Source of the DNA: Clostridia bacterium
Lineage (GTDB): Bacteria; Bacillota; Dehalobacteriia; Dehalobacteriales; Dehalobacteriaceae
Assembly: GCA_012838175.1 (NCBI GenBank)
Contig: DUPU01000169.1
Location: 1-52,565, forward strand
Direction: 5' to 3'
Length of the DNA stretch: 52,565 bases
Shown here: positions 2,785 to 20,102 of the stretch, in pieces
How positions within the stretch are numbered: position 1 is the stretch's first letter
Layout: every line of letters starts with the position of its first letter
The notes under the pieces: model-generated
What the model was told of the DNA's origin: nothing
Seen by the model: only the letters and a program-made list of their open reading frames with translations
Databases searched by the model: none
Position numbers and translations under genes: made by a program

Positions 2785-3549
2785 ATGAAAATCGCTGTTT
2801 CAGGAAAGGGCGGAGTGGGTAAGACCACCATCTCTGCTTATTTTGCCAAAAAATTCGCTCAAGAAGGCTACCAGGTTTATGCAGTCGATGCTGATCCGGA
2901 CCTCAGTTTGGGCACAGTGCTGGGTATTGAAAGCAATGAGATCCAAAATCTCAAGCCCATTGTGGATATGAGGGATGTTGTTGCCTCCAAAAGTAACGGA
3001 GGAGGAGCATTTTATTCATTGAACCCAGATGTGGACGATATTTTAGATGAATATGCCATTACTTTAGGAAAGATTAAATTTTTCAAAATGGGTGCAGTGA
3101 AACAGGGAGGTTCAGCCTGTTATTGTCGTGAAAATTCTTTCTTAAATTCCTTAATGAATGCATTGCTTTTAAACAAAAAAGATGTAGTTGTTTTGGATAT
3201 GGGTGCGGGTATCGAACATCTCACCAGAGGAACTTCCAAAGGGGTAGATTGTATTGTTGTCGTGACAGAACCAACCCTAGTAAGCCTACAGACAGCAAAA
3301 GTGGTAAGCAAGCTGGCTCAAGAGTTGGAAATAAAAGACGTTAAATATATCGGCAACAAAATTCGCCGACCGGAAGAAAAAGATTTCTTGCTCAAGCATC
3401 TTCCTCAAGATGATCTACTTGGTTTTGTAAGTTATAACAATCACATGTTGGATGCAGCGCTGGGCATTGAATCATCAGAAGGTACGGTAGAGTTTGACAG
3501 AGAAATGGATTTAATATTTAAAAACCTAATAAAAAGTTTAGTTAACTGA
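2785..3549 (+). CDS. cooC: CooC-type nickel-insertion ATPase for CO dehydrogenase
   Basis: CooC is a cytoplasmic P-loop ATPase of the MinD/NifH class that binds nickel as a dimer and helps load the C-cluster of CO dehydrogenase. The 254-residue product has the deviant Walker A motif KGGVGKTT (residues 8-15), the DADPD motif (35-39) and the metal-binding Cys-x-Cys pair C112/C114 in ACYCREN. Length and layout are normal for the family. Start: ATG at 2785 with AAAGAGGTG just upstream. It is the first gene of the operon, 85 bases before acsA, matching the order in Moorella-type clusters. A second, related ATPase (acsF, 11.3 kb) lies further down the operon and probably serves acetyl-CoA synthase instead. 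Confidence 0.9.
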   Translation: MKIAVSGKGGVGKTTISAYFAKKFAQEGYQVYAVDADPDLSLGTVLGIESNEIQNLKPIVDMRDVVASKSNGGGAFYSLNPDVDDILDEYAITLGKIKFFKMGAVKQGGSACYCRENSFLNSLMNALLLNKKDVVVLDMGAGIEHLTRGTSKGVDCIVVVTEPTLVSLQTAKVVSKLAQELEIKDVKYIGNKIRRPEEKDFLLKHLPQDDLLGFVSYNNHMLDAALGIESSEGTVEFDREMDLIFKNLIKSLVN

Positions 3550-3634
3550 CTATTAATCCAGCAAGGGATAAAGTCAGGTTTTGTGCTTTCCGCACCAAAA
3601 ATATATGAACATCAAGGTGAAGGAGGTTTAATGT

Positions 3635-5662
3635 ATGCCAAGATTTAGAGAAACATCTCTCAAATCAACTCCGTCCGTACCTCGTAAGGAACGGATAAAG
3701 GATCCTAAAAATGTGATGCGTTCTGTGGATCCTGCAGCTTTATTAATGTTGGAAAAGGCCAAAGAAAAGAATTTAATTTCTTCGTTTGACCGGTTTGCAG
3801 CCCAACAGCCGCAATGTGCTTTCGGTTATGAGGGGATCTGCTGTCGTATTTGTTTCCAGGGACCATGCCGTATTAAAGCGGAAGTAGGTCCGGGAAGCAA
3901 GGGTATTTGCGGTGCCACCGCTTATACTATTGTTGCTCGTAACGTTACCCGGATGATGGCCGGCGGCGCTTCCGCCCACTCCGACCACGGCCGGCATATT
4001 GCCCATGCCCTTCTCCATGCCGCAGAAGGAAAGATTGACGATTTTAAAGTAACTGATGTGGAAAAATTAAAAAGAGTAGCTGATAGAGTAGGAATCAGTA
4101 CAGAAGGAAAAGATGCCAACCAATTAGCCAAGGAAGTTTCCCTGGCAGCTTTGGAAGATTTCGGGCGTCAAACCGACGAGCCATGCCGCTGGTTATGGGC
4201 TTATATCACTGAAGGCAGAAGGAAAAAATTTGAGGATTGCAACATCGCTCCTACTTCCATAGACAGAGCGGTGGTCTCCATGTTGCATCAGACTCATATA
4301 GGAACTGACGCCGACCCGGTAAATATTATTTTCGGCGGTTTAAAAACTTCCTTAGCTGACTACACCGGGATGCATATTTCCACCGACTTGTCGGATGTGC
4401 TTTTCGGCACCCCGAAACCTGTAGTGACAGAAGCTAACTTAGGTGTATTGAAGGCTGATAAAGTAAATATTATTGTACACGGCCATAATCCGATTTTAAG
4501 TCAAACAGTGGTTAATGTAGCCAGAGAAATGGAAGATGATGCGAAGGCGGCCGGTGCTGCCGGGATTCAGCTTTCCGGAATCTGCTGTACCGGTAATGAA
4601 GTTCTCATGCGTTCCGGTGTACCTATTGCCACTAACTTTTCCTCCCAGGAACTGGCTATTATGACCGGGGCCGTTGATGTCATGGTGGTTGATGTGCAGT
4701 GTATTATGCCCAGCATTAGAGCGATTTCCGAATGCTACCATACTAAAATTGTTACTACCATGGATAATTCAAAAATTCCCGGCTCTTATCATTATGCTTT
4801 TGATGAAAAGCATGCCGTGGAAAGTGCGAAAGAAATTATTCGTTTAGCCATTGAAGCTTACAAAGAAAGACAAGGCAAGGAATGCGATATTCCTCAAATC
4901 AAAAACAAGGTCATCGCCGGTTTCAGTTTGGAAGCTTTACTGGACCTGTTCTCAGCCATTGATCCGGAAACTCCCATTAAAGTTTTAACTGATGCTATAG
5001 AAGCAGGGGAAATTGCCGGTGTGGCTCTTCTTTGCGGATGCAACAACTTAGAATCGGTTCATGATAACAACCACTTAACTATTGCTAAGGAATTGGCAAA
5101 AAACAACGTATTTCTGATTGGCACCGGATGCGCCGCTCAAGCTTTGGCCAAAGCCGGACTTCTGGCTCCGGAAGCCGTAGAGGAATACGCGGGAGAAGGT
5201 TTGAAGAACTTCCTGCATAGATTGGCTGATGCCAACAAAGATAAATTAGCGGATGGACTGCCCTTACTGTTCCATATGGGTTCCTGTGTGGATAATTCCC
5301 GGGCCCACGACCTGTGCACCATGATGGCGGAACAGTTGGGTGTGGATATTCCTAAAGTTCCCTTTGTGGCGGCTGCTCCGGAAGCCATGAGCGAAAAAGC
5401 TGTTTCTATCGGCGGCGGGGCTGTAGCAATGGGTATTCCCACTCTCGTGGGCACCATGCCTCCCATCGAAGGAAGCTCCCTGGTTTACGGTATTGCCACG
5501 CAAATTGCTTTCGACGTATACGGCGGTTACTTTATTTTTGAAACCGATCCTATGGTCGCAGCAGAAAAATTAAATGCTGCCCTGGAATACCGAACCTGGA
5601 AACTGGGTATTCATAAGCAAGTAGCAGAAAAGTACGGAACCAGATTATGTGAAAACTATTAA
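3635..5662 (+). CDS. acsA: CO dehydrogenase catalytic subunit of the CODH/ACS complex
   Basis: AcsA reduces CO2 to CO with ferredoxin electrons and sends the CO through an internal tunnel to acetyl-CoA synthase. The 675-residue protein has the N-terminal cysteine cluster for the B and D iron-sulfur centres (CCRICFQGPC, about residues 68-77, then GICGA). It also shows the C-cluster ligand segments: HGHNP, GICCTGNE, VQCIMP, GCNN, GTGCAAQ and MGSCVDN. All expected cysteines appear present and the length is typical of bacterial CODH. Start: ATG at 3635 after AAGGAGG; the ATG four bases earlier reaches a stop after five codons. It is followed after 45 bases by acsB, its structural partner, so an alpha2beta2 complex is expected. 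Confidence 0.96.
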   Translation: MPRFRETSLKSTPSVPRKERIKDPKNVMRSVDPAALLMLEKAKEKNLISSFDRFAAQQPQCAFGYEGICCRICFQGPCRIKAEVGPGSKGICGATAYTIVARNVTRMMAGGASAHSDHGRHIAHALLHAAEGKIDDFKVTDVEKLKRVADRVGISTEGKDANQLAKEVSLAALEDFGRQTDEPCRWLWAYITEGRRKKFEDCNIAPTSIDRAVVSMLHQTHIGTDADPVNIIFGGLKTSLADYTGMHISTDLSDVLFGTPKPVVTEANLGVLKADKVNIIVHGHNPILSQTVVNVAREMEDDAKAAGAAGIQLSGICCTGNEVLMRSGVPIATNFSSQELAIMTGAVDVMVVDVQCIMPSIRAISECYHTKIVTTMDNSKIPGSYHYAFDEKHAVESAKEIIRLAIEAYKERQGKECDIPQIKNKVIAGFSLEALLDLFSAIDPETPIKVLTDAIEAGEIAGVALLCGCNNLESVHDNNHLTIAKELAKNNVFLIGTGCAAQALAKAGLLAPEAVEEYAGEGLKNFLHRLADANKDKLADGLPLLFHMGSCVDNSRAHDLCTMMAEQLGVDIPKVPFVAAAPEAMSEKAVSIGGGAVAMGIPTLVGTMPPIEGSSLVYGIATQIAFDVYGGYFIFETDPMVAAEKLNAALEYRTWKLGIHKQVAEKYGTRLCENY

Positions 5663-5707
5663 TAAATTATAAGAATAGGCAACCTAGGGATTGAAAGGAG
5701 GAAGAGT

Positions 5708-7885
5708 ATGTCTAACTTTGATCAGATTTATGAAGGCGCCATTCAAGAAGGCAAGGAACCGAAGAAGATTTTTAAACAAGCCTATGATGGTGCTATTATT
5801 GCTACAAGTTATGCCGAGATTCTGTTGAATAAGGCCATTCAAAAATATGGGCCGGAACAAGAGATCGCTTATCCCGATACCGCTTACTATCTTCCTGTGA
5901 TTCGTTGTTTAAGCGGGGAGCAGATAACAAAACTGGGTGATCTTCCGCCTATTTTGAACAGAAAGAGAAACCAGATCAAAGAAGAATTAACATTTGAAAA
6001 CGCCCGCCTGGCGGGAGAAGCTACTGTTTATGCGGCAGAAATAATTGAAGCTCTGAAGTATATTGAAGGTAATCCTTATCCTGAACCGTGGACCGGTTTT
6101 ATCGGTGACCCGGTAGTTAGAAAATACGGGATTAAAATGGTGGACTGGACCATTCCCGGAGAAGCTGTAATTGTCGGCCGGGCAAAAACACCGGAACTGG
6201 CCAAGAAAATTGTTTCCGACTTAATGGGTAAGGGCATGATGCTCTTCTTAAGCGATGAAATTATTGAACAGCTCTTTGAAGTTAACGTAAAGCTGGGTTT
6301 GGACTACATTGCATACCCACTGGGGAATTTTACCCAGATCGTGCATGCCGCCAACTATGCCCTGCGGGCCGGGATGATGTTCGGAGGTATTCAGCCCGGA
6401 CTTACGGAAGCCCAGAGAGATTATCAAAGACGGCGTATTATGGCCTTTGTACTCCAATTAGGAGAAAGAGACGAAGTTAAAACTGCTGCGGAACTGGGTT
6501 GTATTTACTTGGGATTCCCGGTTATTACAGACCAGCCCCTGGATGAAGATGAAATCATCCCCGATTGGTATATTTCCGAGCCGGATTATGACAAAATAGT
6601 AAAGATAGCTATGGAAATCCGGGGTATTAAGTTAACCAACATTGATATTGATATTCCCATTAACCATGGTCCGGCCTTTGAAGGAGAAACCATTCGGAAA
6701 GCCGATACCTATATTGAAATGGGCGGCGGTAGGACGGAAGCTTTTGAGCTGGTAAGAATGGTTGGTCCCGATGAGATTGAAGACGGTAAAATTACTGTGG
6801 TAGGACCGGAAATTGACGAATTCAAAGAAGGTGACAAGGTTCCCTTCGGTTTGGTCATTGATATTTACGGACGAAAGATGCAGGAAGACTTTGAAGGTGT
6901 GCTGGAGCGTCGGGTGCACTACTTCATTAACTATGGGGAAGGCTTGTGGCACGTTGCGCAAAGAGACCTGTGCTGGCTTAGAATCAGTAAGGAAGCCGCT
7001 AAGAATGGCTTTAAGTTTAAACACTACGGCGATCTGCTTATTGCCAAGTATAAGTCTGAATTCCCTGCCATTGTGGACCGGGTACAGGTTACCATTTACA
7101 CCGATCCGGAAAAAGTGTCCGAGTGGCATAAAGTAGCGAAAGAGACTTATGCCCGCCGTGATGACCGGATGAGATCTTTGACGGATAGTTCTACGGATAC
7201 TTTCTACTCTTGCCTCCTGTGCCAGTCCTTTGCACCGAATCACGTTTGTATTGTCACACCGGAACGGGTGGGTCTGTGCGGTGCGGTAAGCTGGCTGGAT
7301 GCAAAAGCGTCTTATGAAATTAATCCGAAAGGACCGAACCAGCCTATCTTAAAGGGACCGGCCATTGACGAAGAAAAAGGTATGTGGCAGAGTTGTAATG
7401 ATTACATCTATATAAATTCAAACCGCACATTAGAAGAAGTAAATATTTATACCATGATGGATCGACCCATGACATCCTGTGGATGTTTTGAAGCGATTAT
7501 GGCCATTGTTCCGGAATGTAACGGGATTATGATTACCACCCGTGAGCATACGGGGATGACCCCCTCCGGTATGACCTTCTCCACCTTAGCCGGAATGTGC
7601 GGCGGTGGGGTGCAAACACCCGGATTTATGGGAATCGGCCGCTCCTATATTGTAAGTAAAAAATTCATTCCTGCTGACGGCGGTTTGGCCAGAATTGTTT
7701 GGATGCCGAAAGAATTAAAAGAATTTTTACGGGAAGACTTTGTAAAAAGAAGTGTGGAAGCAGGATTAGGGGAAGACTTTATTGATAAGATTGCCGATGA
7801 AACCGTGGGCACAAGCGCAGAAGAAATTCTCCCCTTCCTGGAAGAAAAAGGTCACCCGGCCTTGACCATGGATTTCATGCTTTAA
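5708..7885 (+). CDS. acsB: Acetyl-CoA synthase subunit of CODH/ACS
   Basis: AcsB joins a methyl group from the corrinoid protein, CO from AcsA and CoA to form acetyl-CoA at its nickel-nickel-[4Fe-4S] A-cluster. The 725-residue protein is full length for the bacterial type and keeps the N-terminal CODH-contacting domain that archaeal versions lack. The A-cluster ligands are all visible: C502, C505, C514 and C524 (spacing Cx2C-x8-C-x9-C), and the Cys-Gly-Cys pair C591/C593. These lie four residues before the Moorella positions as I recall them (506, 509, 518, 528, 595, 597). Start: ATG at 5708 after GAAAGGAGG. It is third in the operon, and the 98-base gap to acsC contains no clear terminator. 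Confidence 0.96.
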   Translation: MSNFDQIYEGAIQEGKEPKKIFKQAYDGAIIATSYAEILLNKAIQKYGPEQEIAYPDTAYYLPVIRCLSGEQITKLGDLPPILNRKRNQIKEELTFENARLAGEATVYAAEIIEALKYIEGNPYPEPWTGFIGDPVVRKYGIKMVDWTIPGEAVIVGRAKTPELAKKIVSDLMGKGMMLFLSDEIIEQLFEVNVKLGLDYIAYPLGNFTQIVHAANYALRAGMMFGGIQPGLTEAQRDYQRRRIMAFVLQLGERDEVKTAAELGCIYLGFPVITDQPLDEDEIIPDWYISEPDYDKIVKIAMEIRGIKLTNIDIDIPINHGPAFEGETIRKADTYIEMGGGRTEAFELVRMVGPDEIEDGKITVVGPEIDEFKEGDKVPFGLVIDIYGRKMQEDFEGVLERRVHYFINYGEGLWHVAQRDLCWLRISKEAAKNGFKFKHYGDLLIAKYKSEFPAIVDRVQVTIYTDPEKVSEWHKVAKETYARRDDRMRSLTDSSTDTFYSCLLCQSFAPNHVCIVTPERVGLCGAVSWLDAKASYEINPKGPNQPILKGPAIDEEKGMWQSCNDYIYINSNRTLEEVNIYTMMDRPMTSCGCFEAIMAIVPECNGIMITTREHTGMTPSGMTFSTLAGMCGGGVQTPGFMGIGRSYIVSKKFIPADGGLARIVWMPKELKEFLREDFVKRSVEAGLGEDFIDKIADETVGTSAEEILPFLEEKGHPALTMDFML

Positions 7886-7983
7886 AGTTAGATTTTGGGC
7901 CCCAAATCCGGTGGGAGGTGACCGCCTCTCACCGGGTAAAATAAATTCATGTAAACATGTAAAAAAGAAAGGAGTTGTTTTTA

Positions 7984-9324
7984 ATGGGCTTAACAGGTTT
8001 AGCAATTTTTAAAGAGCTACCCAAAAAAAACTGTGGTGAATGTGGAGTTCCAACCTGTCTCGCATTTGCTATGGCATTGGCAGCAGGGAAAGCTTCCTTG
8101 GAATCCTGCCCATACGTAACGGAAGAAGCAAAAGAGGCATTGGGTTCTGCTTCTGCTCCTCCCATCAAATTGATTAAAGTTGGTGCCGGAGACAGCAAAG
8201 TTGTGGAATTAGGTGATGAAACGGTAATGTTCCGTCATGACAAAACCTTCTATCATCCCACCGGTATTGCCTTTGAAGTGGAAGATACTTTAGATGAGGG
8301 TGCTTTGGCAGCTCGTTTGGAACAAATCAACGGTTTGGAATTTGACCGGGTTGGTTTGCATTATACCGTCGATCTGGTGGCTATTAAAAATACTTCCGGC
8401 AACGCTGATACATATGCCAATGTGGTAAAAAAAGTTGCCGACAATACTAAACTTGCTTTAATCCTTATGTCTGATGATTCTGCAGCAATGGAAAAGGCTT
8501 TGGAAATTGTCACAGCCCGGAAACCTTTGGTTTATGCAGCTACTGCCGACAACTATGAAGCCATGACAGCTGTTGCTAAGAAATATGAAGCTCCTTTAGC
8601 GGTAAAAGGTGCTAATCTTGATGAATTGGAAGATGTGGTAAATAAGGTTGTGGCCTTAGGACACAAAGATCTGGTCATTGATCCGGGCAGCAGAGAAACT
8701 GTGGAAGTGCTGAAGGACCTCACCCAAATCAGAAGAATGTCCATTAAAAAGAAATTCCGTCCTTTCGGCTATCCGGTTATAGCCTTCACTACGGAAACCG
8801 ATCCCATGGATGAAGTTTTGCAGGCTCAGGTTTATGTTTCCAAATATGCCAGCTTGGTTGTTATGAAAACTGTGGAAAAACAATTTGTGCTACCCCTTCT
8901 TTCCTGGAGACAAAACCTTTATACCGACCCGCAGAAGCCGATTCAAGTGGAGTCTAAGATCTATGAAATCGGTGCGGTTAATGAAAACTCTCCTGTTTAT
9001 ATTACCACCAACTTCTCCCTGTCTTATTACAGCGTAGAAGGTGAAGTTGAAGCTAGTAAGATTCCCTCTTATATTATCCCCATCGATACCGACGGGACTT
9101 CAGTGTTAACAGCTTGGGCAGCAGGTAAATTCGGTGGAGACAGAATTGCTGAAGTAATGAAAGAACTGGGCATTGAACAGAAAGTCAGCCACAGAAATGT
9201 GGTTATTCCCGGTTATGTAGCCGTAATCGCAGCCAAATTAAAAGAAGAATCCGGTTGGAATGTAATTGTCGGACCGAGAGAAGCTGCAGGGATCTCTGCT
9301 TTTGCTCGGGCAAACTTCTCATAA
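7984..9324 (+). CDS. acsC: Corrinoid iron-sulfur protein, large subunit
   Basis: AcsC is the gamma subunit of the corrinoid iron-sulfur protein, the methyl carrier between AcsE and AcsB. The 446-residue product opens with the low-potential [4Fe-4S] domain, ligands C17, C20, C25 and C42 in NCGECGVPTC...SCPYV. A TIM-barrel domain follows, and the C-terminal domain (about 330-446) binds cobalamin together with AcsD. I chose the ATG at 7984, nine bases after AAAGGAG (7968-7974). The in-frame TTG at 7975 directly touches the ribosome binding site and would add only three residues. It is followed after 10 bases by acsV, whose product reactivates this protein. Confidence 0.95.
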   Translation: MGLTGLAIFKELPKKNCGECGVPTCLAFAMALAAGKASLESCPYVTEEAKEALGSASAPPIKLIKVGAGDSKVVELGDETVMFRHDKTFYHPTGIAFEVEDTLDEGALAARLEQINGLEFDRVGLHYTVDLVAIKNTSGNADTYANVVKKVADNTKLALILMSDDSAAMEKALEIVTARKPLVYAATADNYEAMTAVAKKYEAPLAVKGANLDELEDVVNKVVALGHKDLVIDPGSRETVEVLKDLTQIRRMSIKKKFRPFGYPVIAFTTETDPMDEVLQAQVYVSKYASLVVMKTVEKQFVLPLLSWRQNLYTDPQKPIQVESKIYEIGAVNENSPVYITTNFSLSYYSVEGEVEASKIPSYIIPIDTDGTSVLTAWAAGKFGGDRIAEVMKELGIEQKVSHRNVVIPGYVAVIAAKLKEESGWNVIVGPREAAGISAFARANFS

Positions 9325-9334
9325 GGTGAGTTAA

Positions 9335-11236
9335 ATGAAAAAATATTCTGTGGTTTTTATACCGGATAATTTAAAAATTGAAGTTGATGCCGGCACGACT
9401 CTTTTAGAAGCGGCACAACAAGCGGGCATTCATGTAAAAAGCACCTGTGGCGGAAAAGGCACCTGCGGAAAGTGTACTGTGAAAGTGCTCAATGGAGTGG
9501 TTTCCGGAGGGCAGGGAAATATTCCTCAAAGGCTTAGGGAGCAAGGTTTTATTTTGGCCTGTACTGCTGTGGTGGAAAGTGACATTGAAGTTGAAATCCC
9601 CATGGAATTTCGTTTGCACGAACATCAGGTACTGTTGGATGATAATGTTGAAAATGAAGGACTACTGGCAGAAGGAAAACTAGATATCTTAGGGGATTAT
9701 CCTTTAGACCCTTTAGCTCAAAAATTTTATGTGGAATTATCCCCTCCTAATCTCATGGAGAATGCCAGTGATTATTCCCGGTTAATCACAGAATTAAAAA
9801 AACATGTTCCTGCTAAATGGCTGAATATTTCCAATGATGTTTTAAAAACTCTGCCGGATATTTTACGGGCCGGTGATTGGAAAGTTACCGTAACTGTGGC
9901 TTTTTATGAAGGCGGGGGAGAAATAGTTCGGATTACCCCGGGTAAAGACGATTTTCCGGCCTACGGTATAGCCGTTGATGCAGGCACAACCACAGTTGTT
10001 GTTGCTTTAATCGATTTGTCTACCGGAAAAGTACTGGCTAAGCAAGGCACATATAATCGACAGGCTGATTATGGAGACGATGTCATATCTCGGATAATTT
10101 ATGCAGATGAATTTAAGGGACTGGAAAAACTCCAAAAAGTGGCCATTGATACTGTTAATGACCTTTTGGATAAGGTTTTTGAAGAGTATCATGTGAGTAT
10201 TGAGGAGATACCGGTAATGGTAGTGGCGGGAAATACCACCATGACCCATTTATTCTTAGGAATTAACCCCAAATATATCAGGCTGGAACCTTATATTCCT
10301 TCGGCGAATCATTATCCGGTGGTAAAAGCCAAGGAAATCGGTCTAAAAATCAACCCTCAGGGACTGGTATTTAATCTCCCCTCTGTGGCAAGCTATGTGG
10401 GCGGGGATATTGTATCCGGCGCTCTGGTGGCCGAGCTGGATAAAAAAGATGAAATTACTCTTTTTATTGATATCGGGACAAACGGAGAAATGGTTTTAGG
10501 CAATAAGGATTGGTTGATGTGCTGTGCATGCTCGGCAGGACCTGCCTTTGAAGGGGGAGGCATCTCTTTCGGTATGAGAGCCATGCCCGGAGCCATTGAA
10601 CGGGTTTATATTGACAAGAATACCTACGAAGTAAAATACAAAACCATTGGAGATAAAGCTCCCATGGGGATCTGCGGTTCCGGACTGATTGACTGCCTGG
10701 CCAAACTCCGGGAAGCGGGGATAATCGACCGCTCCGGAAAGATTCAGGACGTGGACACTCCCCGAATCAGAAAAGGTGATGACGGCCCTGAATACATATT
10801 AGCCTTTGCCCAGGAATCCGGTATTAATAAAGACATTGTGATTACGGAAAGTGATATTAAGAACTTAATCCGGGCCAAAGGAGCCATTTTTGCCGGAGTC
10901 CGGATTATGTTGAGTATGGCGGATTTGCCCATTGAAGCTATTGATAAGATTCTCATTGCCGGAGGGTTCGGAAACTATTTAAATGTTCCGGATGCCATAC
11001 GCATCGGTCTTTTGCCTGATTTGCCCCAGGATAAATTTGATTTTATCGGAAACAGTTCCTTAAAAGGGGCCCATTTGGCCCTGCTATCCCGGGAGGCTTT
11101 GGGTTTTGCTGACAATTTAGGCCGCAGTATGACATATTTGGAGCTTTCCATAGGCAATGCCTTTATGGATGAATATGTTTCCGCATTGTTCCTGCCTCAT
11201 ACGGATCTGTCCCTGTTTCCTTCGGTCACAGAGTAG
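9335..11236 (+). CDS. acsV: Reductive activator of the corrinoid protein (RACo/AcsV)
   Basis: AcsV uses ATP to push an electron onto the corrinoid protein when its cobalt has oxidised from Co(I) to inactive Co(II). The 633-residue protein has an N-terminal plant-type [2Fe-2S] domain, with ligands C38, C44, C47 and C76. A linker and middle region follow, then a large C-terminal ASKHA-type ATPase domain, seen in VDAGTTTVVVALIDL, VAGNTTMTHLFLG, DIGTNGEMVLG and LIAGGFGNYL. The length fits family members from Carboxydothermus and Moorella. It starts 10 bases after acsC with a GGTGAG ribosome binding site and is clearly co-transcribed. No key residue looks missing. Confidence 0.93.
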   Translation: MKKYSVVFIPDNLKIEVDAGTTLLEAAQQAGIHVKSTCGGKGTCGKCTVKVLNGVVSGGQGNIPQRLREQGFILACTAVVESDIEVEIPMEFRLHEHQVLLDDNVENEGLLAEGKLDILGDYPLDPLAQKFYVELSPPNLMENASDYSRLITELKKHVPAKWLNISNDVLKTLPDILRAGDWKVTVTVAFYEGGGEIVRITPGKDDFPAYGIAVDAGTTTVVVALIDLSTGKVLAKQGTYNRQADYGDDVISRIIYADEFKGLEKLQKVAIDTVNDLLDKVFEEYHVSIEEIPVMVVAGNTTMTHLFLGINPKYIRLEPYIPSANHYPVVKAKEIGLKINPQGLVFNLPSVASYVGGDIVSGALVAELDKKDEITLFIDIGTNGEMVLGNKDWLMCCACSAGPAFEGGGISFGMRAMPGAIERVYIDKNTYEVKYKTIGDKAPMGICGSGLIDCLAKLREAGIIDRSGKIQDVDTPRIRKGDDGPEYILAFAQESGINKDIVITESDIKNLIRAKGAIFAGVRIMLSMADLPIEAIDKILIAGGFGNYLNVPDAIRIGLLPDLPQDKFDFIGNSSLKGAHLALLSREALGFADNLGRSMTYLELSIGNAFMDEYVSALFLPHTDLSLFPSVTE

Positions 11237-11288
11237 TAAGTAGAAAGTAAATCATTAATTTGGAAATATTTGAAAGGTGGTTGGTGCT

Positions 11289-12041
11289 ATGTCAAAACAT
11301 ATTGCTGTTGTAGGGAAGGGAGGAACCGGGAAAACAACTTTTTCTGCCTTAACCGTTCGCTATCTGGTGGAAAAAGACCGCGGTTCAGTTTTAGCAGTTG
11401 ACGCAGACCCTAATGCCAATTTGAATGAAGCACTAGGCATGGAAGTTACCACCACTATTTCGCAACTTGTGGAGCAGACGAAGGACCCGAAAGCAATACC
11501 CGTAGGCATGTCCAAAGAGACATTTATCCAGTATAAATTGCAGCAGTCCTTGGTGGAAACGAATAAGGTGGATTTATTAGTCATGGGGGGGCCTCAGGGG
11601 CCGGGTTGCTATTGTTATCCTAATGATTTGCTCAGAAGACATATGGAGCTTTTGGAACGGGGATATGACTTTATGGTAATTGACAACGAAGCGGGAATGG
11701 AACATATCAGCAGGAGAACAATTCAAGATGTGGATACCCTTTTCTTAATCAGTGATGCCTCAGTGAGAGGAATTCGCACCGCCGGCAGGCTGGCTCAACT
11801 GGTGAAATCCCTTAAAATCAAGGTCAACCAAATGCATTTAGTAGTTACCAAGGGGACACCGGAGATTATGGAAGAGTTAAAGGAAGCCATTGAAGAAACC
11901 GGGGTGCCCATGATTGGTTGGATTCCTTATGATGAGACAGTGATTAAATACGATGCGGAAGGAAAACCCCTCTTTAAACTTCCTGCAGATTCTCCGGTGG
12001 TAAAAGGGGTTTACGAGATTTTGGAAAAAGCAAAAATATAG
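11289..12041 (+). CDS. acsF: AcsF, CooC-like ATPase for acetyl-CoA synthase maturation
   Basis: AcsF is a MinD-like ATPase related to CooC that is tied to nickel activation of acetyl-CoA synthase. The 250-residue product has Walker A GKGGTGKTT (residues 9-17), DADPNANL (38-45) and a Cys-x-Cys pair C107/C109 in GPGCYCYPN. The CYCYP context, instead of the ACYCREN of the cooC product, separates this paralogue from the first one in the operon. I chose ATG 11289, eight bases after AAAGGTGG. The GTG at 11277 would lie inside that ribosome binding site. The gene lies between acsV and acsD, as in other ancestral-type acs clusters. Confidence 0.88.
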   Translation: MSKHIAVVGKGGTGKTTFSALTVRYLVEKDRGSVLAVDADPNANLNEALGMEVTTTISQLVEQTKDPKAIPVGMSKETFIQYKLQQSLVETNKVDLLVMGGPQGPGCYCYPNDLLRRHMELLERGYDFMVIDNEAGMEHISRRTIQDVDTLFLISDASVRGIRTAGRLAQLVKSLKIKVNQMHLVVTKGTPEIMEELKEAIEETGVPMIGWIPYDETVIKYDAEGKPLFKLPADSPVVKGVYEILEKAKI

Positions 12042-12074
12042 GGTGAATTTGAGGATAAGAAAGGAGAGAAAAAA

Positions 12075-13040
12075 ATGGCTGTTCAGCTTTTAAAAGAAAG
12101 ATATGCTAGTGAAGTGGGCACCGTAGTCTTAGGTGCCACCAAAGAACAAGGGGGAACCCGGTCTGTCAGTCTGACAGTGGGCGGTGAAGCTGCTTTACCT
12201 TTCCAGCACTATGAAGGCTCAATTCCCAACCGGCCCATAATTGCCATAGAAGTTACCGATGTGGAACCGAACTGGCCGGAACCCTTGAAAGAAGCCTTGG
12301 GAGATGTTATTAAAGACCCGGTAGCTTGGGCAAAAAAATGTGTAGATGAGTGGGGCGCCGATGCTATCTACGTAAAATTAGACGGGGCAGATCCGGACGG
12401 AGCAAACAGAACTCCGGAAGAGTGTGCCAAAACCGTCAAAGATATTTTGGCCGCTGTGGGTGTACCTTTAATCGTAGTTGGTTGCGGTGATGTGGAAAAA
12501 GACCATGAAGTTATGGTAAAAGTGGCCGAAGAAACTGCAGGAGAAAAATTACTTATGGGCGTTGCCGAACAGGAAAACTACAAATCCCTGGTAGCGGCTT
12601 GCCTGGGGAACGGGCACAGCGTAATTGCCAGATCTCCGCTGGATATTAATATCTGCAAACAATTAAACATCCTTATTTCGGAAATGAATATGCCGACTGA
12701 CCGCATTGTAATTGACCCCATGATTGCCGGATTAGGTTACGGAATTGAATACGGTTACTCCATTATGGAACGTGGCCGGATGGGAGCTCTGCAGGGAGAT
12801 AAAATGCTGGCCATGCCTATGATCTGTACCGTAGGATTTGAAGCTTGGAGAGCTAAAGAAGCCTGGGCCAGCGAAGCCGATTTCCCTGGATGGGGTGCCC
12901 AGAAAGACAGAGGCCCGGCATGGGAAGCTATGACTGCGGCAGCTTTACTTCAAGCCGGTGCAAATATTCTCTGCATGAGACACCCTCAAGCGGTGAAAGC
13001 AGTGAAGAAGAATATTGAACAGTTAATGGAAACAAAATAA
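12075..13040 (+). CDS. acsD: Corrinoid iron-sulfur protein, small subunit
   Basis: AcsD is the delta subunit of the corrinoid iron-sulfur protein. It is a TIM-barrel protein that pairs with AcsC, helps bind cobalamin between the two subunits and takes part in docking the methyltransferase AcsE. The product has 321 residues, normal length, without cysteine clusters, as expected because the [4Fe-4S] centre is in AcsC. Recognisable family segments include [24 protein letters not shown] and the C-terminal [13 protein letters not shown]. Start: ATG at 12075 after AAAGGAGAG. It follows acsF by 33 bases and precedes acsE by 35 bases, within the operon. Confidence 0.95.
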
Positions 13041-13072
13041 TATAAAAAGATTTAGAAAATAAGGAGGTTTGA

Positions 13073-13864
<792 letters not shown>

Positions 13865-13887
13865 TACGTGTTATAAATTTATTTAAG

Positions 13888-13912
13888 AACCCTGCCTGAT
13901 GGCGGGGTTTTT
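13888..13912 (+). terminator. Terminator of the CODH/ACS operon
   Basis: A 9-bp stem AACCCTGCC/GGCGGGGTT with one T-G pair (13888-13896 with 13901-13909) and a TGAT loop runs into five T residues. It lies 24 bases after the acsE stop. Confidence 0.9.
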
Positions 13913-14010
13913 GTATTCAAAGGGAAAAGCACATCAAGCAAAGTATTCAGGAACCATATGGATTTCTATTAAACTACCCATACTAAAAACTATAATTATA
14001 AAAATAGGGT

Positions 14011-14034
14011 TATTTATTGTTAAGACAATAAATA
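14011..14034. promoter_or_regulatory. Perfect palindrome upstream of the metF-metV fusion gene
   Basis: A 10-bp inverted repeat TATTTATTGT-TAAG-ACAATAAATA lies about 145 bases upstream of the methylene-THF reductase gene, in the 315-base gap after acsE. Its form suits a dimeric repressor or activator. No T-run follows, so it is not a typical terminator. The rest of the gap is AT-rich and holds a weak -10-like TAGAAT near 14135, but no open frame I would call. Confidence 0.5.
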
Positions 14035-14179
14035 CTTTCAATAATAAATAAATTGGAAAAAAAATTAAACAAATAGCAAAATATTAAAGTTATAACAACA
14101 AATTAACATATTAAATGTTGATATTTTTGTGTTAGAATTAAATCAAAAGGTTATTATTGATGGGTGAGGAGGAGAAGAA

Positions 14180-15763
14180 GTGGAAAACCGTTTTAAACAA
14201 TCGTTGCTCGATCCTAATACCTTTTCTGTAACCTGGGAATTAGTACCGGGAAGAGGAGCCCGGGAAAAGTCTCAGGAAAGCGCTATTGCCGCGGCAGAAC
14301 AAGCTGCAAAAGGGGGCAAAGTTCACGCGCTTACCATTACAGATAATCCGGGGGGCAATCCGGCCATGCTGGCGGATTATCTGGGAGCTGAAATATTAAA
14401 AATGGGAATTGAACCACTGGTGCATTTTACCTGCAAAGATAAAAACCGGAACCAGATGGAAAGCCAATTATATGCCTTGGATCGTGCTAACGTACGTAAT
14501 CTTCTGGTGATGACCGGTGATTATCCGGTAACCGGTTTTAAAGGACGGCCTAAGCCGGTATTTGATATCGATCCTACCCATGCTTTACAGCTGATACAGG
14601 AAATGAATAAGGGTTTGGAATATCCGGGTTTGAAAGGAACTATTAAACATCAAGCCAGTGATTTCTTTGCCGGAGCGGCGGTTTCTCCTTTTAAAGCTAC
14701 GGAAGCTGAGCTTATGGTGCAGTATTTTAAGCTGAAGAAGAAAATCGCCTCAGGTGCTCAGTTTATTGTACCCCAGTTGGGTTATGATGCCCGGAAATTC
14801 CATGAATTGATTCAATTTATGCGGCTGAATGATCTAAATGTACCTGTGGTAGGCAATGTTTATATTTTACCCTATGGTGCGGGACGTGCCATGAACCAAA
14901 ACCAGGTTCCGGGTTGTGTTGTGACGGATAAACTCCTGGCAGTACTGGACAAAGAACGACAGGCTCCGGATAAGGGTTTGGGTGCACGTCTTTTAAGAGC
15001 GGCTAAAATGTATGCCTTTATGAAGGGAATGGGCTTTGCCGGTGTTCATATCGGAGGACACAATATTAAATATGAACAGGTTGAATATATTATAGAAAAA
15101 GGGGAAGAGCTGAGTAAAAATTGGATGGATTATATCCATGAGTTTGATTTCCCCATGGAGAACGGTTTTTATTATTATCAGAAGGACGAAAAAACCGGAT
15201 TAAATACGGAAATTCCCACCGAACGGAAAGGACGCCCCTTGGATACCAAGGTGGAATTCACTTATCGTTTATCCCGGGTGGTGCATAGTTTGATTTTTGA
15301 ACCCGGAAAGAACTTCTTTGGTTTGATGAAAGGAATTTCAAAAGCCGTTGAAGGCAAGAAAATTGAAAAACTCTATCATGGCATTGAGCATTTAGGCAAG
15401 GTAGCCATCTATGATTGCAAAGATTGCGGAGATTGTGCTTTAATTGACTTGGCTTATGTTTGCCCGATGTCCCAGTGTCCTAAGAACCAGCGAAACGGTG
15501 CCTGCGGAGGAAGCTATAACGGCTGGTGTGAAGTTTACCCCGGGAAGAAAAAATGCGCTTATGTAAGAGCATATTCCCGTTTGAAGAATTATAACCAGGA
15601 AAGTGAGTTAGATTCTTACCAGGTAGATCCCTGTAACTGGGATCATTACCAGACTTCCGGCTGGATCAACTACTATACCGGAAAAGACCATTCCGCAGAG
15701 CGGCTGGGCTTGAATAAAGATAGGAAAAAGGCACCGTCCGACGGAAAATCAGTAAGCAAATAA
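14180..15763 (+). CDS. Methylene-tetrahydrofolate reductase, MetF-MetV fusion
   Basis: This 527-residue protein combines two acetogen polypeptides. Residues about 1-310 are MetF, a TIM-barrel FAD enzyme that reduces 5,10-methylene-THF to 5-methyl-THF (VTWELVPGRGAREKS, HALTITDNPGG, LLVMTGDYP, FAGVHIGGHN). Residues about 320-500 are the MetV-like domain with its cysteine-rich core, CKDCGDC...CPMSQCPKNQRNG and CGGSYNGWCEV...KKCAYVRAYSRL, which probably binds zinc or an iron-sulfur cluster. Moorella-type acetogens carry metF and metV as separate genes. Start: GTG at 14180, after GAGGAGGAGAAGAA. It lies outside the CODH/ACS terminator with its own upstream region, so it may be regulated apart from the operon. 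No HdrABC or electron-bifurcating subunit lies beside it. The electron donor is unknown. Confidence 0.88.
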   Translation: MENRFKQSLLDPNTFSVTWELVPGRGAREKSQESAIAAAEQAAKGGKVHALTITDNPGGNPAMLADYLGAEILKMGIEPLVHFTCKDKNRNQMESQLYALDRANVRNLLVMTGDYPVTGFKGRPKPVFDIDPTHALQLIQEMNKGLEYPGLKGTIKHQASDFFAGAAVSPFKATEAELMVQYFKLKKKIASGAQFIVPQLGYDARKFHELIQFMRLNDLNVPVVGNVYILPYGAGRAMNQNQVPGCVVTDKLLAVLDKERQAPDKGLGARLLRAAKMYAFMKGMGFAGVHIGGHNIKYEQVEYIIEKGEELSKNWMDYIHEFDFPMENGFYYYQKDEKTGLNTEIPTERKGRPLDTKVEFTYRLSRVVHSLIFEPGKNFFGLMKGISKAVEGKKIEKLYHGIEHLGKVAIYDCKDCGDCALIDLAYVCPMSQCPKNQRNGACGGSYNGWCEVYPGKKKCAYVRAYSRLKNYNQESELDSYQVDPCNWDHYQTSGWINYYTGKDHSAERLGLNKDRKKAPSDGKSVSK

Positions 15764-15873: not shown

Positions 15874-17340
15874 TTATAGGGTATTCTTCAGGTTTCTGTT
15901 GGCCCGTTCCACAATTTCCTTGATTTTTCTTTGCACATCTTGCGGCAAAGGCTCCGGTTCATAGTTTTCTATTATATCTCTTACCTTTTCATTGGCAACT
16001 TGAGTCAAAGTTTTGCCGCCGGCAGCCTGCCAGTCCCGGTAATTCTGGCGATTTAACAAAGCCGGCTGCCAGATTTCCTCTTCTTTAAACAACGAAGTGT
16101 GCGCACTGTTTTTATAATTTCCGCCGGGACCTATTTCATCTATAAGGTCGACAGCCAATCTTTCATCGTCAATTTTAATACCCCGGACAAAACGTCTGGC
16201 CATACCGATAATATCGTCGCAGATAGTTAAAAGTTCCAAACTGGCGGTGCTCCCGTATTCCACATAGCCGACATCGTGATTTAAATTGGGCCCGGAAATA
16301 GCCGTAGATAAAATGGATAAGGACGCTTCTAAACCGGCTTGTTCGTCGGGAATACAGGAGTCACTGCACCCACAGGTGCCAAACATGGGAAGTTCTAGGT
16401 AATGGGCCATATCGGCCAGGGCATCCATGAGCAGGTTGAATTCGGGAGAACCATAGGAAAAGATGGTGGTACCCATATCCATAACGGTAAACACCCCGCC
16501 CATAATAAAGGGGGCGCCTTCCCTGGTATTCTGGTTCAAAACCAGGCCGCTTAAACTTTCCGCCAAACCGTTGGTGAGTACTCCGGCCATGGTGGAGGGA
16601 ACGGTACCTCCGGCCATGACGCAAGGAGTATAAACTACAGGCAACGCTTTCTTCGCGGCCAATATTAGCTTGGAAGCAGCTTCCCAGGCATGCTGGAGGG
16701 GGGAGATGGGTTCAGCATAGAGAGTCATAAAGGGATTCTTTCTCAGTTCTTCTGCTCCTCCGGCGATAATTTCACACATTTCAATAATATCGGCAAATCC
16801 GTAAATGTCATGGGCAGTGGTAACAATGGGTTTTCCGGTATTTAGTACCTGTGCTTCAAACTGGTAACGGTCGGAAATTCGGAGGGGCACATTTTGTACA
16901 ATGCCCAAAGACATGACAAAATCAATATTGGGCAGAGCATCAATCACTTTACAAGCCCAGCCTACAGACTCGATACCGCTTCTTTTCCTTTCTCCGGTAT
17001 AGGGATCAAGATAAAAGGGTGTATCAGAACCTGTCCCAAAATATGCATTGTTTCCTTCCAGCAGCACATCCCGGGAACCGGTGCGGCTATTGCACAGAGT
17101 AACCCGGTGTGGTACAGTTCCTAAAGCCCGGTCTACCAGATAGGAAGGGATCCTCACCCGGTTACCTTCCACAAAGCAGCCTGACTTTTTCATAATTTCC
17201 AAAGCTTCATCATCATACATGGTGACACCGGTTCTCTCCAGTACTTCTTGAGCCGCCTGATAGATTTCACTGCATTGATCGGGGGAAAGTACATTAAAGA
17301 CAGACCCGGCATTGCCTTGATAATTGCTTCTGGTTTTCAT
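15874..17340 (-). CDS. MttB-superfamily methyltransferase, non-pyrrolysine (copy 1)
   Basis: This 488-residue protein belongs to the trimethylamine methyltransferase superfamily (COG5598). Members move a methyl group from a quaternary or tertiary amine to a corrinoid protein. True MttB needs pyrrolysine at an in-frame UAG. This gene has no internal stop, so it belongs with the non-Pyl group that includes glycine betaine methyltransferase MtgB. Family segments include CRVTLCNSRTGSRDVLL-like and NNAYFGTGSDTPFYLD stretches near 78-110 and EIGPGGNYKNSAHT near 410. At M319-Q334 it reads MFGTCGCSDSCIPDEQ, with three cysteines and Cys329 where its neighbour has Lys. It is second in a two-gene operon, 41 bases after copy 2, with AAAGGGGAG before the ATG. 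No corrinoid protein gene is adjacent. The substrate is unknown. Confidence 0.85.
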   Translation of the reverse strand: MKTRSNYQGNAGSVFNVLSPDQCSEIYQAAQEVLERTGVTMYDDEALEIMKKSGCFVEGNRVRIPSYLVDRALGTVPHRVTLCNSRTGSRDVLLEGNNAYFGTGSDTPFYLDPYTGERKRSGIESVGWACKVIDALPNIDFVMSLGIVQNVPLRISDRYQFEAQVLNTGKPIVTTAHDIYGFADIIEMCEIIAGGAEELRKNPFMTLYAEPISPLQHAWEAASKLILAAKKALPVVYTPCVMAGGTVPSTMAGVLTNGLAESLSGLVLNQNTREGAPFIMGGVFTVMDMGTTIFSYGSPEFNLLMDALADMAHYLELPMFGTCGCSDSCIPDEQAGLEASLSILSTAISGPNLNHDVGYVEYGSTASLELLTICDDIIGMARRFVRGIKIDDERLAVDLIDEIGPGGNYKNSAHTSLFKEEEIWQPALLNRQNYRDWQAAGGKTLTQVANEKVRDIIENYEPEPLPQDVQRKIKEIVERANRNLKNTL

Positions 17341-17381
17341 AAAAAACTCCCCTTTCTCATATATTTGACCTGAATAATTGG

Positions 17382-18782
17382 CTAAAACAGAATGGCATTT
17401 ATTTTTTCCAAAACCGTCTCCGAGAGAGGCTCAGGTTTGTGATTGCTTAAAATTTTGGCACCCTTTTCCTTTGCCTTTTGAGCAAAGGTTTTTTCCCCGG
17501 CTTTCACCCAATCGGCATGACGCAGACGGTTAATAATGGTAGGCCACCAAGTTTCCTTTCTAAAATGGCGCATGGTATGCTCCGATCCCAGGAAATGGCC
17601 TCCCGGCCCGACTTCATCAATAGCATCAACAGCCAAGGTGTTGTCATTTACCTTAATCCCTCTTAAAATTCGTTTTACCATGCCAATAATTTCGTCATTC
17701 ATCACCATTACATCTAAGGAAGATGTCTGTCCATATTCCAGCATATTGCACCCGACTACCAGATTGGATCCAATCAGACCACCGGCCAAAAGGGAAAAAG
17801 CCGATTCTATGCCGGCCTGAGCATCAAAAATTTTGGCATCGGCAATACCGCCGGTAATGAAACTGGGCAGGCGGAGATAGCGGGAGATATTGGCCATCCC
17901 GGCAGAAATTAAACTATGTTCCGGGACACCTAGAGTCTTTGCATCCGCGCCTTGGCCTTCTCCAACCATGGATACTCCGAGAATAAAGGGGGCTCCTTCA
18001 TGCACCAGTTGGCTGATGATCAGTGCTGCCAAGGAATCAGCTAAAGTAAGGGCCAGGTATCCGGCCAGGGAAACGGGAGCTTGATCCCCGGCCATGGCAT
18101 TACAGCAATAAATTAGAGGAATTCTCTTCTTTGCGGCAAAGGCTACCTTATCCCAGGTATTGCCGGGAGCAAGGGGGATGGCAGACTCTACCAAATAAGC
18201 AAAGAAAGGTTTTTGCTGTAGCATCTTTTCCCCGCCCACTAGAACTGCACCGATATTAATGGTTTTTTCACCTTCGGACAGGTCAGAAAAAATATGAATC
18301 ATAGGTTTAGAAGTAACATTAATTAATTCAGCCACAGAACCGGTAACAAAATCAATATTTGACAGACCGTCGGATAATAGGGCTGTTTTTTTCCGGTCTT
18401 CCCCTGTGGTTTCTCGTCTTTCTCCTGTGTCCGAATCTAAAATATAGGGAGTATGGGTATTAGTGCCATAGTAAATATTATGTGCTTCCAGGAATAACGA
18501 ACGTTTACCTTGCCGATTGGTTAGTACTACCCGGCAGGGAGCGGACTTCAATGCCCATTGGACTGAAGATGCAGGAATACGTACCCGGTTGCCGTCTATC
18601 CAACAATTTTTTTCACCATAAAGCTCCAGTAATTCTTTGTTATCTACAATCACCCCGGTTCTTTCTAATATTTCCAGGGCATTTAAAAAGATCTCTTCAC
18701 ACTGATCGTTGCTTAGCATTTTGAACTGAGGAGTTTTGTTAACCTGGTAATTGGCTCTCACATATAAACTCTTACTGGTCAT
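17382..18782 (-). CDS. MttB-superfamily methyltransferase, non-pyrrolysine (copy 2)
   Basis: This is the upstream gene of the MttB pair and encodes 466 residues of the COG5598 TIM-barrel methyltransferase family. It shares the layout of copy 1 (N-terminal LSNDQCEEIF, CRVVLTNRQGKRSLFL, YGTNTHTPYILD, DEVGPGGHFLGSEHT, C-terminal NHKPEPLSE) but is clearly a diverged paralogue and not a recent duplicate. The segment around K317 reads GGIADAKIFDAQAG, the more usual form. There is no in-frame UAG, so pyrrolysine is not used. I chose ATG 18782, preceded by AAAGGAGCGG on the - strand; the TTG two codons earlier is less likely. A sigma-A promoter lies about 120 bases upstream. Methyl transfer from an amine toward the Wood-Ljungdahl pathway is the natural inference; the substrate is not readable. 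Confidence 0.85.
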   Translation of the reverse strand: MTSKSLYVRANYQVNKTPQFKMLSNDQCEEIFLNALEILERTGVIVDNKELLELYGEKNCWIDGNRVRIPASSVQWALKSAPCRVVLTNRQGKRSLFLEAHNIYYGTNTHTPYILDSDTGERRETTGEDRKKTALLSDGLSNIDFVTGSVAELINVTSKPMIHIFSDLSEGEKTINIGAVLVGGEKMLQQKPFFAYLVESAIPLAPGNTWDKVAFAAKKRIPLIYCCNAMAGDQAPVSLAGYLALTLADSLAALIISQLVHEGAPFILGVSMVGEGQGADAKTLGVPEHSLISAGMANISRYLRLPSFITGGIADAKIFDAQAGIESAFSLLAGGLIGSNLVVGCNMLEYGQTSSLDVMVMNDEIIGMVKRILRGIKVNDNTLAVDAIDEVGPGGHFLGSEHTMRHFRKETWWPTIINRLRHADWVKAGEKTFAQKAKEKGAKILSNHKPEPLSETVLEKINAILF

Positions 18783-18900
18783 AAACAACCGCTCCTTTCT
18801 TTTTTCATATTAGATTATCTGATTCAAGAAACAGCAGTAAAGGCAAATCCTCCTTTCAATGTTTTTTCAAGATTACCCCATGAATACGATATGTTTTGTT

Positions 18901-19254: not shown

Positions 19255-19501
19255 TGTAAACCCGATGAACGGAAAAGTAGGATGATGCAGGGCTTAAAGA
19301 GAGCCGGTGACGGTGGAAATCCGGCAGACTGATCTTCTGAACAGCCATCCCGGAGGGGGGAATGAAAGAAAGCTTAAGTTCTTCCGGGTAAACCCGTTAT
19401 CCTGTCAAGTGCATCGTACTTGGCTTTTTCATAATCCTGTACGATGAATTAGGGTGGTACCGCGAGCCTCTCGTCCCTTAGCAGGGACAGGGGCTTTTTT
19501 T
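19255..19501 (+). ncRNA. T-box riboswitch leader
   Basis: T-box leaders sense uncharged tRNA and let transcription continue only when the amino acid is scarce. Visible parts: basal stem I GATGAACGG with CCGTTATC, the AGTA loop-E strand, the AGAGAGCCGG region, an 8-bp stem III CATCGTAC/GTACGATG (19412-19419 with 19439-19446), the T-box core AGGGTGGTACCGCG (19451-19464), and a terminator AGCCTCTCGTCCCT...AGGGACAGGGGCT with a T-run (19465-19501). The tRNA-end bulge TGGT pairs with an ACCA end, so the sensed tRNA should carry discriminator base A. I could not assign the specifier codon: at 19386-19395 the 3' strand reads GGGTAAACCC and not the usual GAA-codon-A order. It controls the Lrp-type regulator and aminotransferase downstream. 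Confidence 0.93.
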
Positions 19502-19619
19502 AATTCTGTCAGAAGATAACTTCTTGACAGAACAAAGTTGGGCCTATGCTGTAGATATGCACGCCGGGGCTAGGTCCAATTGCTTTCTTTAGTTAAACTA
19601 ATTTGGGAGGTAATTTGTA

Positions 19620-20102
19620 ATGAAAAACAAAGTGTTAAAACTTTTAGAATGTAACGGCCGGATTTCTTTTGAACAAATGGCTGTGATGCTGGACACTACC
19701 GTGGAGGAAATTGAGGCCATTGTCAAAAAATTGGAGGAAGAAAAAATTATTTTAAAATATTCTGCTGTGATTAACTGGGAAAAGGCAGGTGTGGAAGAGG
19801 CCGTCGCTATTATTGATGTAAAGGTTTCTCCCCAAAGGGAGGTAGGTTTTGATGCCATAGCCCAAAGGATTTATCGGTTTCCCGAGGTACGTTCCGTATC
19901 ATTAATATCGGGGGAGTACGATCTTTCTGTTTCCATTGAAGGCAAGAGCATGAAAGAAGTGGCCATGTTTGTGGCACAAAAACTTGCTACCATTGACCAT
20001 GTTTTAAGCACCAGGACCCATTTTATCTTAAAAAGATATAAAATGGCCGGGGTAATTTTTGAAGACGAGGAAGTGGATCGGAGAGAGGTGATTACTCCAT
20101 GA
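19620..20102 (+). CDS. Lrp/AsnC family transcriptional regulator
   Basis: This is a 160-residue feast/famine regulator. Residues about 3-60 form the DNA-binding winged helix-turn-helix (LLECNGRISFEQMAVMLDTT), and residues about 68-145 form the RAM ligand-binding domain. Such proteins oligomerise and respond to amino acids. Start: ATG at 19620, nine bases after GGGAGG. It is first after the T-box terminator and overlaps the aminotransferase start by four bases (ATGA), so the two are translationally coupled. Likely role: control of amino acid metabolism, perhaps of its own operon. The effector should be related to the amino acid of the tRNA sensed by the T-box, but which one cannot be read. Confidence 0.9.
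   Translation: MKNKVLKLLECNGRISFEQMAVMLDTTVEEIEAIVKKLEEEKIILKYSAVINWEKAGVEEAVAIIDVKVSPQREVGFDAIAQRIYRFPEVRSVSLISGEYDLSVSIEGKSMKEVAMFVAQKLATIDHVLSTRTHFILKRYKMAGVIFEDEEVDRREVITP

Follow-up and report, generated by a model that had tools for sequence, protein, structure and literature searches.

A conserved pair of MttB-superfamily genes with no pyrrolysine codon, beside the CODH/ACS operon of a Clostridia bacterium, as a candidate betaine-pathway methyltransferase

The window analysed here, the whole 52,565-nucleotide stretch of contig DUPU01000169.1 from a Clostridia bacterium, carries two neighboring minus-strand genes, A (15874–17340, 488 residues) and B (17382–18782). As an earlier note on this DNA had proposed, both are diverged members of the MttB superfamily (42% identity to one another), with whole-length matches to PF06253/COG5598 (PF06253 E-values of 4e-94 for A and 2.7e-81 for B); the possibility that either was frame-broken was rejected, as both ORFs are intact. 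B comes first, its ATG at 18782 lying behind an AGGAG Shine-Dalgarno sequence (the ORF listing extends to a TTG at 18788), and A follows after 41 nt with a ribosome-binding site of its own and, 3′ of it, a terminator-like stem-loop (15856–15824, minus strand) with a 14-bp stem and then a T-rich tail. The spacing, ribosome-binding site and terminator fit the operon that had been claimed, the promoter being a consensus match only. The statement that neither gene has a UAG held for the pyrrolysine position but not for the end of B, whose stop codon is a UAG (17384–17382) followed by a TGA 15 codons further, in a genome that encodes PylS; occasional read-through there (17382–17384) could append a short tail.

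The CODH/ACS genes, including those for AcsV, AcsE and a MetF-type protein, lie at 2785–15763 on the plus strand, convergent with the A/B pair and beside it as described before. No MttC-type corrinoid gene was found in the window and its sole pterin-binding methyltransferase gene is that for AcsE, in agreement with the earlier observation that no MttC- or MtxA-type gene is adjacent. On the other side of the pair, a plus-strand T-box leader (RF00230, 110.8 bits) at 19256–19481 precedes genes for an Lrp/AsnC-type regulator and an aminotransferase; regulation of the pair by the T-box or the Lrp gene (19256–20102) was rejected, as strain DCMF has a T-box-like sequence and an Lrp gene but no A/B pair in its metF–lrp interval. 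The BCCT piece at the contig edge (1–417) holds the 3′ end of a gene whose remainder lies on contig C216, the two contigs overlapping by 21 nt. No other BCCT gene was found in the genome, and the C216 part of this one carries a frameshift, due either to mutation or to an error of assembly. The transport link once drawn from this fragment to the pair is weak, given the 15 kb between them, the contig edge and the frameshift.

Pyrrolysine MttB was recognized by an in-frame UAG at the position of Pyl334 and a TIGR02369 (pyrrolysine MttB equivalog) score above 525 bits, and with scores of 397 and 377 bits the pair falls below this cut-off. The AlphaFold model of A (pLDDT 82; the model of B has the same value) shares the fold of MttB (7xcl and 7xcn, TM 0.90–0.91), with its TIM barrel and dimerization loop; unlike A and B, which have Cys325 and Ile, respectively, at the corresponding position, MttB carries pyrrolysine there and is a homo-hexamer (PMC9842639). 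MtgB (2qne, 9yce) is likewise of the superfamily and of the same fold (TM 0.88) but is only 27% identical, has Leu at the pyrrolysine position and belongs to a separate clade. In a tree that included MtgB and pyrrolysine MttB, as the earlier note had suggested for MtgB, the A-type (79 sequences) and B-type (50 sequences) proteins formed sister clades apart from both and from C39:69; a true MtgB relative does occur elsewhere in this genome, on contig C39. The Eubacterium limosum proteins MtpB, MtcB, MtyB and MthB were compared by description: they too are non-pyrrolysine MttB-family members, but their substrates are carboxylated quaternary amines or phosphocholine, and the published accounts we found describe no pair. 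As a single corrinoid protein, MtqC, serves MtpB, MtcB and MtyB (PMC8604678), a missing adjacent corrinoid partner is not unusual.

The same pair occurs in strain DCMF (NZ_CP017634.1, a 6,441,270-base chromosome) at 1,183,961–1,187,548, in the gene order A, corrinoid protein (CoP), B, URO-D. This order matches that reported for 111152–111155, and the pair stands some 80 ORFs ahead of the mec cassette (111230–37), as expected. Judging by order, composition and gene spacing rather than record labels, Ga0180325_111152 and _111154 are the apparent DCMF orthologues of A and B; in that strain these are the two proteins with the strongest induction by glycine betaine (PMC9768040). The authors of that study suggested dimethylglycine as a possible substrate for the 111152–111158 cluster; we found in it no description of a heteromer, of the loss of the B active site or of a Cys-Cys-His site. 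The DCMF proteins are 84% (A) and 51% (B) identical to those of the window, but in their locus A and B are separated by a corrinoid gene and accompanied by URO-D methyltransferase genes, both of which the window lacks. A related pair, A′/B′, is found with CoP, HydA, MtgA, MtgB and BCCT in the DCMF betaine cluster Ga0180325_114734–42 and in clusters of the Sporomusa/Frackibacter type; the lengths in the DCMF cluster (210, 494, 210, 488, 668, 265 and 471 residues, plus a transporter) agree, start-codon choices aside, with those given for Ga0180325_114734–41 in Table 2 of PMC9768040. Identity to A′/B′ is 60–62% for window A and 46–47% for window B, A′ has Pro-Cys where A has Ser-Asp, and the window locus has neither CoP nor HydA. 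A second A/B pair in DCMF (L106:9618–18459) has no corrinoid gene between its members and lies upstream of glycine cleavage genes; five further loci likewise have gcv genes close to A.

The genome itself (2.41 Mb, 232 contigs, 96% complete) contains 31 MttB matches, so that an MttB pair is not unusual here, and it holds PylS and several pyrrolysine-type MttB genes. A further tandem MttB pair lies on contig C90 (L042:3108–6052), one member of which was scored with an in-frame TAA by the profile search. The genome-wide search for MttC and MtxA partners that had been recommended identified corrinoid proteins on contigs C39 and C206 (87% and 77% identical, respectively, to the DCMF protein encoded between A and B), and on C206 an MtgA with 92% identity to that of the DCMF betaine cluster. 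Contig C39 also encodes a paralogous A′/B′ pair of the DCMF betaine-cluster type, a hydantoinase-like protein and an MtgB 80% identical to that of DCMF, and contig C75 a sarcosine reductase GrdF/GrdG (88% and 90% identical to the DCMF proteins). DCMF takes betaine to dimethylglycine and then to sarcosine, followed by reductive cleavage, and it demethylates dimethylglycine (PMC8163858); based on the matching CoPs, MtgA, MtgB and GrdF/GrdG, this published route looks to be present in this genome as well.

A scan of the genome contig collection with protein B gave no match, and alignment of the A clade identified A-type genes in 80 named loci (Desulfosporosinus, Sporomusa, Syntrophaceticus, Halanaerobiales, Spirochaetes, Eggerthellaceae and others). 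All 45 loci testable for pairing, that is, those with 2.5 kb of sequence upstream of the A-type gene, have a B-type gene directly upstream of A on the same strand, and in 25 of them a corrinoid gene lies between the two. MtgA was found within 6 kb in 38 of 57 loci, and a hydantoinase-like gene directly 3′ of A in 60 of 67, although it is absent from the window locus; its hydantoinase/oxoprolinase-like product (e.g., L112:12466–14469) could possibly activate the corrinoid protein in an ATP-dependent manner or act on an N-methyl intermediate. Both clade and B-then-A adjacency place the window pair in the betaine-cluster A/B type; A′/B′ pairs occur within betaine clusters, not all of which have MtgB close by. 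The trees of A and B mirror each other (r=0.90, reached by 0 of 2000 permutations), and the B proteins of the window and DCMF group with B′ (0.99 in the tree), which could reflect one loss or long-branch attraction. With pairing conserved in this way and close corrinoid and MtgA partners elsewhere in the genome, the description of the pair as an orphan is accurate only locally.

Gly110, Thr111, Met249 and Tyr364 form part of the pocket around Pyl334 in the MttB of M. barkeri (PMC9842639). All 79 A-type proteins have Cys, Cys and His at MttB positions 249, 334 and 364, and at positions 110–111 they have Ser-Asp or Pro-Cys, position 111 thus being Asp or Cys in 79 of 79. In the A protein of the window these residues are Asp106 (codon at 17023–17025, MttB position 111), Cys240 (16621–16623), Cys325 (16366–16368) and His355 (16276–16278), all encoded on the minus strand. 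Asp or Cys, two Cys and His are common zinc ligands, and for this reason the four conserved residues of A may form a metal site, e.g., for Zn2+. We found no descriptions of zinc, cysteine or a heterodimer for MttB in the openly accessible literature; the Asp/Cys-Cys-Cys-His set of A-type proteins is new here, as is the A/B conservation asymmetry set out below. Two paralogues in this genome (L048:205–1701 and L047:9723–11225) have Asp111, Cys334 and His364 in MttB numbering with Gly at 249, so that the non-pyrrolysine MttB proteins include a wider Cys-His subfamily. The presence of Cys and His at 334 and 364 in C222 and C28 paralogues, where 249 is not Cys, weighs against the metal reading.

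The Cys-Cys-His triad is kept in 28 of 50 B-type proteins. Those of the A′/B′ type mostly have Lys-Ala-His, DCMF B shows Arg/Gln-Cys-Gln, and none of the three residues survives in window B, which reads Asn (minus-strand codon 18099–18101) at position 249, Ile (17844–17846) at the pyrrolysine-equivalent position and Val (17754–17756) at position 364. The B proteins of the window and of DCMF have a deletion in common, located after the NIDF motif; window B has a 17-column gap in its barrel region and a shortened C terminus.

In MttB the corrinoid protein enters the barrel of one subunit and is held there by loop 396–452 of the dimer partner (PMC9842639). The counterpart of this dimerization and corrinoid-docking loop in B, approximately at 17490–17660 on the minus strand, is the most conserved part of the protein. 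If B were non-catalytic its loop should be conserved while its core drifts, with the reverse in A. In the 21 loci where B has lost the triad, mean loop-minus-core identity is +0.10 in B vs −0.22 in A, and B lies above A in 10 of 10 comparisons (Wilcoxon p=0.002), these being disjoint pairs rather than fully independent lineages; in the 28 loci with intact B the value is −0.10 for both, and B lies above A in 7 of 14 such comparisons (p=1.0). A scan of the B-lost group by 57-residue stretches, with DCMF in place of L129 as the counterpart of the window pair, revealed that each stretch before the loop favors A by at least 0.10 and that none outside the loop favors B. Between the window and DCMF, identity in A is ~90% in the core and 60% in the loop, and in B ~45% and 72%, respectively. 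As the loop of B is conserved and that of A relaxed only where B has lost its triad, we infer that B acts mainly as a docking partner of A. Pairing and asymmetry together strengthen the guess of a heteromer made in the earlier note, which we now regard as probable. We consider it somewhat probable, if by no means assured, that A and B are an obligate subunit pair, a corrinoid-dependent betaine-pathway methyltransferase in which A would hold the active site and B would dock a corrinoid protein supplied in trans.

Two separate homo-oligomeric methyltransferases with different substrates (e.g., betaine and dimethylglycine, or with one acting on sarcosine) would be in keeping with MttB being a homo-hexamer (PMC9842639), with the many cassettes in which one corrinoid gene precedes B and a second separates B from A, and with the Cys-Cys-His residues kept in over half of the B proteins. 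We find this rather unlikely in light of the strict pairing (45 of 45), the complementary conservation of B loop and A core that is confined to loci where B lost the triad, and a window B with a gapped barrel and none of the three residues; in lineages with intact B, A and B could have separate roles. The degeneration of window B could also mark it as a decaying relic beside an A that works alone as an ordinary homomer: of the 70 conserved B columns, 10 are altered in it (vs 1 of 153 for A), and it sits on a long branch (0.65 vs 0.13 for A), in addition to its barrel deletion and shortened C terminus. However, its reading frame is unbroken and preceded by a good ribosome-binding site, its loop is 72% conserved, and the DCMF orthologue, which shares the deletion and the loss, appears to be the protein most induced by betaine, all of which makes decay an improbable explanation.

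Adjacency to CODH/ACS was seen in one of 78 loci, that of the window. In DCMF, with which the window is otherwise largely collinear (1.19–1.24 Mb), the pair lies ~43 kb from the CODH/ACS operon, and the 536-nt gap between metF and lrp has sequence matching the T-box region of the window and no pair, from which we conclude, judging by this sequence comparison, that the location beside CODH/ACS is a lineage-specific insertion relative to DCMF. It is consequently very improbable that the pair gives methyl groups directly to the neighboring AcsCD, as physical adjacency might suggest, the more so as relatives keep MttC-type corrinoid genes with 87% and 77% matches in this genome. The idea of a distant or shared corrinoid protein is thus upheld through the C39 and C206 proteins, but AcsCD is an unlikely candidate for it, and functional coupling of the pair to CODH/ACS finds no support.

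Under the preferred reading of an A/B subunit pair, A and B would assemble as a heteromer on the MttB plan, and a corrinoid protein supplied in trans from the C39 or C206 gene would insert its cofactor into the barrel of A, with the C-terminal loop of B holding that protein over the pocket of A. A would bind the amine, and Asp106, Cys240, Cys325 and His355, in place of the residues around pyrrolysine, may hold a metal that activates the amine nitrogen; B, having no active-site set, would serve mainly to dock the corrinoid protein onto A. Co(I) would then take the methyl group, and the C206 MtgA would hand it to tetrahydrofolate, from where it would enter the Wood-Ljungdahl pathway by the ordinary route. 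The most likely step for the pair is the conversion of N,N-dimethylglycine to sarcosine, the second step of the betaine pathway; dimethylglycine is the likeliest substrate because MtgB can perform the first step from betaine, though A and B could instead act on betaine itself or on a different amine. In the literature searched we found no biochemistry of A- or B-type proteins. In its most specific form, that of an asymmetric heteromer with A as the dimethylglycine demethylase, using a metal held by Asp/Cys-Cys-Cys-His, and B as a pseudoenzyme for docking the corrinoid protein onto A, the proposal is offered only tentatively and is open to considerable doubt. The broader claim of the earlier note, that the pair of different non-pyrrolysine paralogues is connected with the demethylation of methylated amines and so with methyl supply to the acetyl-CoA pathway, is supported.

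For the thousands of members of the MttB superfamily few substrates are known, and pyrrolysine is thought to be needed for the activation of tertiary amines. Anaerobes such as DCMF and Sporomusa take dimethylglycine to sarcosine, and to our knowledge no enzyme is firmly assigned to this step. A conserved pair with Cys and His at the pyrrolysine site and with relatives that betaine strongly induces makes both the dimethylglycine step and the need for pyrrolysine testable. If the proposed function is true, the pair would represent pyrrolysine-free tertiary amine activation and supply the missing second step of anaerobic betaine demethylation, and a pseudoenzyme subunit serving solely to dock a B12 protein would be a new arrangement in the MttB family.
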